From contig JAUIID010000014.1 of assembly GCA_030431615.1 (NCBI GenBank), positions 1 through 45,377 of the forward strand: a DNA stretch of 45,377 nt, read 5' to 3'. The notes below the pieces were generated by a model, which saw only the letters and a list, made by a program, of their open reading frames with translations, searched no databases and was not told where the DNA came from. This DNA comes from Alphaproteobacteria bacterium. GTDB lineage: Bacteria; Pseudomonadota; Alphaproteobacteria; Geminicoccales; Geminicoccaceae. Of the stretch, positions 27,032 through 28,417 are shown one piece after another. The translations under genes were made by a program, and so were the position numbers. Numbering within the stretch: position 1 is the first letter of the stretch; every line of letters begins with the position of its first letter.

Positions 27032-27661
27032 TCAGCCGATGAGCTGGAGGTCGCGCAGGTGACGCTCGAGCCCGGCGGGGTTCGCGAAGCGATGGGCGAC
27101 GAAGCCGAGCCGCTCGGCGGTCCGGATATTGGCGGCCGAATCGTCGATGAAGAGGATCGATGCCGGGGCGAGGCCGGTGTCCTCGAGGACGTGCTCGAAG
27201 ATGTCGTCGTTGGGCTTGATCATGCCGAGCGCGCCCGAGACGTAGATATGGGCGAACCGGCCGAGGAAGCCGTAGTCCGGGTCGTCATGGACGAGCGCGA
27301 AGGTCTCCGCCGACCAGTTGGTCAGGGCACGAAGCGGTGTCTGGCGCGCCGCCAGCTCTTCCAGGAGGGTCACCGTCCCGCCGATGGGCCCGCCGATCAT
27401 CTCGAGCCAGCGGTGCCGGTAGGCCTCGATCAGCGGCCGCTGCTCGGGATGGGCCGTCGCCAGCTCCTCGACCGCCAGGGCGAAGGAGCGGCCGCGGTCG
27501 AGCTCGAGGTTCCAGGCCGGCGTGCAGACGGTCGTCAGGAACTGCTCCATCGCCGCCTCGTCGGCGATGATCTTGCGGTAGAGCCGCCGCGGGTCCCAGT
27601 CGATCAGAACGCCGCCGAGATCGAAGAGGACGAGCTCGAACTGTGGCACGGTTTCGGGCAT
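27032..27661 (-). CDS. HAD superfamily hydrolase (subfamily IA)
   Basis: A 209-residue HAD phosphatase-like protein. Motif I is FDLGGVLIDWDPRRLY, with the nucleophile Asp and Gly replacing the second Asp, as is common in this YihX/haloacid-dehalogenase-like branch. Motif II is ALTNWS and motif III/IV includes KPNDDIFEHVLEDTGL and FIDDSAANI. It may act as a phosphatase on a small sugar phosphate or nucleotide. It leads the two-gene operon with the penicillin acylase. The repeat-rich region lies directly upstream of its start. Confidence 0.9.
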   Translation of the reverse strand: MPETVPQFELVLFDLGGVLIDWDPRRLYRKIIADEAAMEQFLTTVCTPAWNLELDRGRSFALAVEELATAHPEQRPLIEAYRHRWLEMIGGPIGGTVTLLEELAARQTPLRALTNWSAETFALVHDDPDYGFLGRFAHIYVSGALGMIKPNDDIFEHVLEDTGLAPASILFIDDSAANIRTAERLGFVAHRFANPAGLERHLRDLQLIG

Positions 27662-28014
27662 TGAGCAGTCACTTTCCTGCGCGGTCGAGGAGGGGCCGGA
27701 CGCCCGGCCCGAAAGGCCCGGTCCGGACCCCGGGGCGGGAGGCGAGGCCCCCGCTGACCGGGTGAAAGCCGGATCGGCGGCGCGGAGAATGCCCGCATGA
27801 CGCCTGCCGGTCGAGCCCTTCCCGTGCCAGCGCCCGACATCCGCGCCACCCGTGATTGCTATAGGAAATATAGCCTAGATCGGTGTTGGCTGCAAGCCTG
27901 CCGCGAGGGGCTCGGGTTGGTTCGGCAATTTGCCGTTTCGGCAGCCCGCCGCTGCCGGGCCGGGCGCCTCTCGAGAGCAGAAACATGTTTGTTTTCATGA
28001 TCTTGAATGACCCC
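27662..28014. promoter_or_regulatory. Noncoding upstream region with several palindromes
   Basis: This stretch carries no convincing gene. It holds the inverted repeat GCTATA / TATAGC (27858-27874, 5-nt spacer) in a short AT-rich patch, and two perfect 10-bp palindromes, CTCTCGAGAG (27968-27977) and AAACATGTTT (27981-27990). Together with the repeat arrays to its right it forms a divergent regulatory region between the HAD gene and the Tat-exported hydrolase gene. Open frames here on the minus strand are low-complexity. Confidence 0.45.
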
Positions 28015-28110
28015 GGGTTCGTTCGTCGGCGGCCGGGTTCGTTCGTCGGAAAGGTGGGTTCGTTCGTCCGAATCCCGGGTTCGCTCGTCGATTCCGTGGG
28101 TTCGTTCGTC
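28015..28110. repeat. Five tandem ~21-bp direct repeats, core GGGTTCGTTCGTC
   Basis: Copies start at 28015, 28035, 28056, 28077 and 28098, with periods of 20, 21, 21 and 21 bp. The 13-bp core GGGTTCGTTCGTC is kept in all except for one C in copy 4 and one C near the end of copy 3's extension; the intervening ~8 bp vary. The period equals two DNA helical turns and also seven codons. On the minus strand the repeat would encode TNEP/DERT-like heptads, but no real gene is supported. Confidence 0.85.
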
Positions 28111-28116
28111 GCCAGC

Positions 28117-28262
28117 TGTCGCGGAATACGCGACATTTCCCGGCAAGTGTCGCGGATTCCGCGACATAAGCGATCGTGATGTCGCATATAACGCGACAGT
28201 TCGGCGGGTACTGTCGCGCTATATGCGACAAGCCAGGTCTTGCTGTCGCGTTATATGCGACA
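28117..28262. repeat. Array of five 19-bp palindromes TGTCGC-N7-GCGACA at 31-32-bp spacing
   Basis: Sites are at 28117-28135, 28148-28166, 28180-28198, 28212-28230 and 28244-28262. All share the arms TGTCGC and GCGACA; centres differ (GGAATAC, GGATTCC, ATATAAC, GCTATAT, GTTATAT). The third site is the exact reverse complement of the fifth, and the fourth differs from the fifth by one base. Start-to-start distances of 31, 32, 32 and 32 bp are close to three helical turns, so all sites would face the same side of the DNA. This is the geometry of cooperative operators or iterons. The binding protein is unknown. Confidence 0.9.
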
Positions 28263-28417
28263 GTTCGGGTGTCAGCGCGGTGCATGGGAGGCCGGATGCA
28301 CCATCGGGACGGCTGACCACGATGCTGGCATAAGCATTCGTGATGGGCTCAGGGCGAGGGGTTCCAAGGGTGGCCCGTGCCGCACGGCGGTCGCTTGACC
28401 TTGCATCGGCGGCGGCC

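Follow-up and report, generated by a model that had tools for sequence, protein, structure and literature searches.

What do five palindromes of one design do when set three helical turns apart in an alphaproteobacterial contig? The window, by which is meant the whole stretch of DNA analysed (45,377 nucleotides), is one contig of a 5.33-Mb alphaproteobacterial MAG of 314 contigs that is 97% complete, here called G000. The original prediction was that a dimeric protein binds the palindromes cooperatively along one face of the DNA, as at replication iterons or multi-operator promoters. The five exact TGTCGC-N7-GCGACA sites on which it was built are all present in the window where it placed them, with starts 31, 32, 32 and 32 bp apart, and pairwise comparison confirms that sites 3 and 5 are exact reverse complements of each other (100%).

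The palindromes as one module of a dispersed element

A genome-wide scan, which the original prediction had called for, returned 169 exact sites and 0 for the reversed control pattern, far beyond chance. The prediction was to fall if the motif proved to be scattered as unphased single copies; instead, 167 of the 169 sites lie inside elements that bear the array, so the site is practically never a single operator.

The five-palindrome array occurs about 38 times in the MAG, and nearly every copy is part of one composite, non-coding element of about 490 bp. Most of this element had been overlooked, namely the D repeats, a promoter-like module at 27862-27895, the B site and two F dyads. A sequence model of the direct-repeat (D) array, R1, matches nearly 40 elements in G000 and about 9 in each of two genomes of the same genus, G001 and G002. 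Thirty-eight loci of 5-11 kb were retrieved and 36 full elements were parsed; one of the remaining two is truncated after two dyads and the other is degenerate. The order of modules is promoter A, the B site GGGTTCGTTCG, five D repeats GGGTTCGTTCGTC, five E dyads TGTCGCR-N5-YGCGACA and, in some copies, two F dyads ATAAGCGWTCGTGAT. The F pair, 164 bp apart, is found in over a third of the copies, and the F motif was seen only on contigs with elements. Judged from its sequence, then, the element is a genus-specific, intergenic, non-coding composite, of which the palindromes are the E module. The copy in the window is laid out in Table 1; its D repeats are spaced by 20, 21, 21 and 21 bp, or two helical turns.

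Table 1. Modules and sites of the window copy of the element
Feature	Position	Strand	Basis or remark
Whole composite element	27860..28346	.	Comparison of 36 full copies and R1 model matches
Module A, TAGG-N8-CCTA palindrome overlapping the -10 region	27862..27877	.	Alignment of 33 copies
-10 hexamer TATATT of the apparent outward (leftward) sigma70-type promoter	27867..27872	-	17-bp spacing in 32/36 copies
-35 hexamer TTGCAG of the same apparent promoter as TATATT (-10); TTGACn in many copies	27890..27895	-	
Module B, solitary D-like site GGGTTGGTTCGGCAA	27914..27928	+	Near-fixed distance to A
Module D, five direct repeats GGGTTCGYTCGTC	28015..28110	+	Starts 28015, 28035, 28056, 28077, 28098
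Module E, dyad 1 TGTCGCGGAATACGCGACA	28117..28135	.	Exact TGTCGC-N7-GCGACA
Module E, dyad 2 TGTCGCGGATTCCGCGACA	28148..28166	.	Exact TGTCGC-N7-GCGACA
Module E, dyad 3 TGTCGCATATAACGCGACA	28180..28198	.	Exact TGTCGC-N7-GCGACA
Module E, dyad 4 TGTCGCGCTATATGCGACA	28212..28230	.	Exact TGTCGC-N7-GCGACA
Module E, dyad 5 TGTCGCGTTATATGCGACA, reverse complement of dyad 3	28244..28262	.	Exact TGTCGC-N7-GCGACA
Module F, internal ATAAGCGATCGTGAT, halfway between E2 and E3	28166..28180	.	
Module F, terminal ATAAGCATTCGTGAT	28330..28344	.	84 bp (8.0 turns) from E5 centre; 164 bp from internal F

In three elements of G000 (L143, L146 and L147, on contigs C4, C120 and C150), the first two D repeats stand in inverted orientation, CGACGAACGAACCC. 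These elements form a subfamily and show that D sites can change orientation as units. A loose GACAA-N-TTGTC-like word stands just upstream of D in G000.

Helical phasing, divergence and the reading of the sites in DNA

Across the 36 full copies, successive palindromes are separated by 31 bp (39 times), 32 bp (98 times), 41 bp (once) or 42 bp (twice), such that 137 of 140 gaps are 31 or 32 bp and all three exceptions are longer by one helical turn. E dyads are three turns apart and D repeats two. From the last D repeat to the first dyad, 33 of 36 copies have 18 bp start to start, equal to 21 bp, or two turns, centre to centre. The terminal F dyad lies 84 bp from E5, again centre to centre, in most F-bearing copies, and otherwise at 74 or 53 bp (about 8, 7 and 5 turns). 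Of the 16 copies with an internal F, 13 also have a terminal one, about 164 bp further on (154 bp in one of them), as against 0 of 20 at that position where the internal F is missing (hypergeometric p about 2e-7, calculated by hand). In 27 of 28 copies, the distance between A and the B site, GGGTTCGTTCGGCA, is 41-44 or 51-53 bp. The distance from A/B to D varies, and no helical phasing between them was found at 10.5 bp, suggesting that there are two rigid blocks, D-E-F and A-B.

Between copies, mean identity in the flanks of the arrays (58 bp upstream of D, 66 bp downstream of E) is 31%, about the level of unrelated GC-rich sequence, and the sequence between sites is near saturation; E spacers have a mean identity of 46%. 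Despite this divergence, the 12-base arms are perfect in 164 of the 176 dyads of the parsed elements, so the sites are maintained by selection or conversion and not by recent copying alone. Some pairs of elements are 86-88% identical in their E spacers and form subfamilies. L136 and L149 have spacers that are 88% identical and upstream sequences that are 28% identical; copies that have the E block in common but not the left end suggest that gene conversion was at least partly involved.

The predicted cooperative dimer on one DNA face is well supported by this comparison of sequences, since the 3.0-turn spacing is kept in 36 copies with diverged spacers, the other gaps add one turn, and the half-sites show no strand bias. 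No replication function, such as the likeness to iterons might imply, was found. Direct and inverted repeats beside a promoter do look like a rep locus, and the element could in principle be the replication origin or iteron region of a plasmid or chromid. However, one genome has about 38 copies, no rep gene turned up among the Pfam families of the genes next to them, and no similar plasmid was found. The replication initiator expected at a plasmid iteron origin is likewise absent beside the window copy and among the families shown for the flanking proteins of the other copies. An origin of this kind is thus very improbable, and a phage, plasmid or viral origin was rejected when the collections searched gave no match.

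Each palindrome could also fold into a hairpin of 6-8 bp, and a promoter is close by, such that the array might be a structured RNA or a transcribed array of hairpins. The first and last positions of the N7 spacer (7 and 13) argue otherwise, with G-C in 61 dyads, G-T in 52, A-C in 52 and A-T in 11. Given that G-T, which would be G-U in RNA, is no more frequent than A-C, there is no wobble bias, and the code appears to be read in duplex DNA as two half-sites. Moreover, spacing by helical turns has no bearing on RNA, the dyads of G001 and G002 include non-complementary half-sites, and the promoter is directed away from the array. A search of Rfam found no family at or above the gathering score, and this result and the symmetry of G-T and A-C together led us to reject an RNA structure, a reading to which we give almost no weight.

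An apparent outward promoter and its gene context

On the opposite strand, module A reads TTGACn-N17-TATAAT/TATTAT, the pattern of an outward sigma70-type promoter, and CTTGAC-N17-TATWAT is conserved in all three members of the genus. Of the 36 copies, 32 have the 17-bp spacing and 19 reach a score of 9/12 or more, compared to 0.8% of shuffles. With its conserved -35 and -10 hexamers 17 bp apart, module A is therefore an apparent sigma70-type promoter. No conserved transcript was found downstream of it in the aligned copies. The neighbours of the window element are HAD, penicillin amidase and beta-lactamase-fold genes, and promoter A points at the start of the HAD gene (27032-27661, minus strand), with a leader of about 200 nt; gene starts come from a simple in-house gene finder and are approximate.

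On the promoter side, the adjoining gene runs towards the element in 24 of 33 copies (p = 0.014), and its end is often no more than 15 bp from A. Convergent genes flank 13 of 33 copies, compared to 11 of the 82 other intergenic gaps that are 100 bp or longer (p = 0.0002). Flanking genes, taken up to two per side, yielded 132 proteins and 176 Pfam families with no enrichment, and the idea of a regulon with one shared gene function was rejected. An operator local to the HAD or the hydrolase gene was rejected as well, given that about 38 copies adjoin unrelated genes. Near one element, BrnT toxin and BrnA antitoxin domains fall in one predicted frame of 204 aa (L124:5168-5779), either a fusion or a frame error. 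Beyond the dyads of L144 and L145, stretches of about 3.3 kb and 2.2 kb have no predicted genes and are possibly foreign or decayed DNA.

The best-supported part of our explanation is that two or more oligomeric DNA-binding proteins would bind the sites cooperatively as arrays; that the arrays regulate the outward promoter is less certain, but probable. A dimeric protein of helix-turn-helix type would bind E, with one dimer per dyad, and a second protein would bind D and B. The dimers would touch along one face of the DNA to form a continuous wrapped or filamentous nucleoprotein complex, with three-turn geometry on E and two-turn geometry on D, and the F pair, where present, would be bound at its edges. 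The complex would govern RNA polymerase at promoter A through contact at the B site beside the -35. Outward transcription would thereby be switched jointly at dozens of loci, in most cases into the neighbouring gene from its 3' end and, in the window, towards the HAD/penicillin-amidase genes. Taken whole, the proposal that cooperative E and D/B arrays control promoter A at dozens of loci seems to us about evenly balanced between right and wrong. Against it, a promoter that faces the 3' end of an inward-reading gene (24 of 33) is odd for a gene promoter, the neighbouring genes have no common function, and other genera have the D core without E arrays. The unphased and variable distance between A/B and D also makes it less likely that the E/D complex and RNA polymerase are in rigid contact.

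Two PF01037 proteins are encoded in G000, one a full-length AsnC-type protein and the other a stand-alone sensor domain. The full-length protein is 51% identical to its nearest relative in G002, and its putative recognition helix reads PCGERL in G000 and PCWARL in G002. As a candidate binder of E, it is a lead only.

The strongest rival holds that the element organises the chromosome, as a centromere-like or nucleoid-anchoring sequence that offers a dispersed scaffold to an architectural protein and whose exact location is of little importance. Such a role would fit sites that are kept despite unrelated neighbouring genes, the enrichment between convergent genes and the turnover of element positions between species. 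In ParB-type arrays, regular inverted repeats are bound by dimers, and centromeres of the sopC type have inverted repeats within longer iterons, at one locus or scattered (PMC5016525). The element resembles these in its regularly repeated inverted repeats, but it adds D, F, B and promoter modules and is present in about 38 copies. A chromosome-organising role leaves the conserved sigma70-type promoter and the B site unexplained, and no ParB-like or other partner was found. Beside the copies there are no par genes beyond two generic matches to ParA/MinD-like ATPase domains, and ParB is not among the top 25 Pfam families. We consider this role possible but unlikely.

Relatives of the element and known systems

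The palindrome pair was not found in 145 other genomes, G001 and G002 included. G001 and G002 do carry the D array, together with five dyads spaced by 32, 31, 31 and 32 bp and two F sites about 163 bp apart; their dyad arms differ from those of G000, reading TGNGTC and TGGCGC. Elements L150-L165 of these genomes have an extra conserved word, CTGCGACAASCTGTCC, ahead of the first D repeat. The promoter-side flanking genes are orthologous to those in G000 at two loci, an S49 peptidase (L143/L153) and a MatE gene (L119/L165). L136/L242 is a third shared position, at which L242 looks like a collapsed remnant that consists of one D and one dyad. Different arms within the same layout, also at the two orthologous loci, indicate that the recognition code differs between species. 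A concerted change of arms through gene conversion is plausible, given that some copies have E blocks but not left ends in common (L136/L149).

Among the 28 best G001/G002 matches to genes beside G000 elements, only two have an intact or multi-repeat D array and one has the remnant L242, but both genomes are fragmented and several elements lie at contig ends, which makes absence there uncertain. Orthologous positions that mostly have no intact D array are also what might be expected of a non-autonomous mobile or recombinationally copied element (MITE-, BIME- or mobile-promoter-like), whose sites would serve a transposase or recombination complex, as are multiple intergenic copies, often right behind stop codons, and subfamilies with similar E spacers. 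However, reading the aligned ends of 24 copies brought neither terminal inverted repeats nor target duplications to notice, and no match came from viral, phage and plasmid collections. With non-site sequence near saturation, the copies look old while their motifs are intact, and E blocks shared without the left end point to gene conversion at least in part. Mobile promoters and MITEs are likewise repeated cassettes with an outward-facing promoter at the edge, but the element has elaborate phased operator arrays, and no link to a transposase was seen.

REP and BIME sequences are dispersed, intergenic, palindromic, mosaic and species-specific repeats (PMC2817692), as is the element. Unlike them, it has rigid helical phasing and a promoter, it is without alternating REP pairs, and no GTAG-type head was noticed. 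The structural selection on hairpins that marks REP and BIME sequences is not evident either, given the lack of wobble bias and the mismatched half-sites in G001 and G002. PF01797 (Y1 transposase, RAYT) has 0 matches in G000 and G001 and 2 in G002, and was detected in 5 of 14 control genomes. A REP or BIME with RAYT was rejected, as the element's own genome is without the Y1 transposase. Mobility or copying by recombination we judge to be less likely still than a chromosome-organising role.

Other genera of the family have the D core CGGGTTCGTTCG in excess over its control (109 vs 0 in G021, 41 vs 0 in G010 and 36 vs 0 in G011). It forms CTCGGGTTCGTTCGTGCAAAA arrays near TAGG-N8-CCTA-like sites, often near gene ends, and at these loci no E dyads and no clear -35 were found. 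Some single copies of the D core fall within predicted coding regions, so not every match belongs to an element. Long arrays in G021 (L204, L213, L217, L219 and L220) alternate CTCGGGTTCGTTCGTGCAAAA with CCCGGGTTCGTTTGG-type sites, and some continue with GATAGCAT and TAGGN8CCTA-like sites. The element there is related to the one in the window but distinct from it.

Two public MAG contigs labelled Chloroflexia and Myxococcales (L058 and L059) also carry complete or nearly complete copies of the element and are probably misbinned DNA of the same alphaproteobacterial genus. Three matches to the palindrome pair in an 'Akkermansia' MAG were rejected as a different tandem repeat (GTCGCCTTSAAGGCGAC). 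Those contigs, labelled 'Akkermansia muciniphila' (L057, L060 and L061), contain a REP-like tandem repeat of about 32 bp, GGAGTGTCGCCTTCAAGGCGACATGACGGAGC, and their GC content of 67-69% suggests that they are mislabelled.

Cooperative protein arrays, the explanation preferred here, recall the operators of Lrp/AsnC regulators, which are clusters of (semi)palindromic sites with cooperative binding and DNA wrapping; sites for archaeal regulators of the Lrp type are clustered on one face, two or three turns apart centre to centre (PMC2995911). The E dyads, at 31/32 bp, are spaced in this way, and the D repeats, at 20/21 bp, are not dyads. The element differs in that its sites are nearly invariant, its layout of five and five recurs at about 38 unrelated loci, and it has further types of site. 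The resemblance is one of geometry and not of membership.

In bacteria, most multi-operator arrays have been described at single promoters, and most dispersed repeats are hairpin-type or linked to a transposase. To our knowledge, the composite element fits no named regulatory or repeat element. In short, one helically phased layout for several proteins appears to be maintained at dozens of unrelated loci, and a sister species has it with another dyad sequence. We propose, tentatively and with more doubt than confidence, that these are platforms of one design at about 38 loci, each with a promoter and with two-turn, three-turn and 164-bp-paired sites for three or more proteins, and that their dyad code was switched in concert between sister species while the layout and some positions were kept. 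If true, a protein-DNA code would be co-evolving over more than 150 sites in one genome. With dozens of natural replicates, the requirements of a cooperative DNA-binding assembly for spacings and half-sites could be measured, and the genus may offer a comparative case of how a protein and all of its genomic sites shift specificity jointly.
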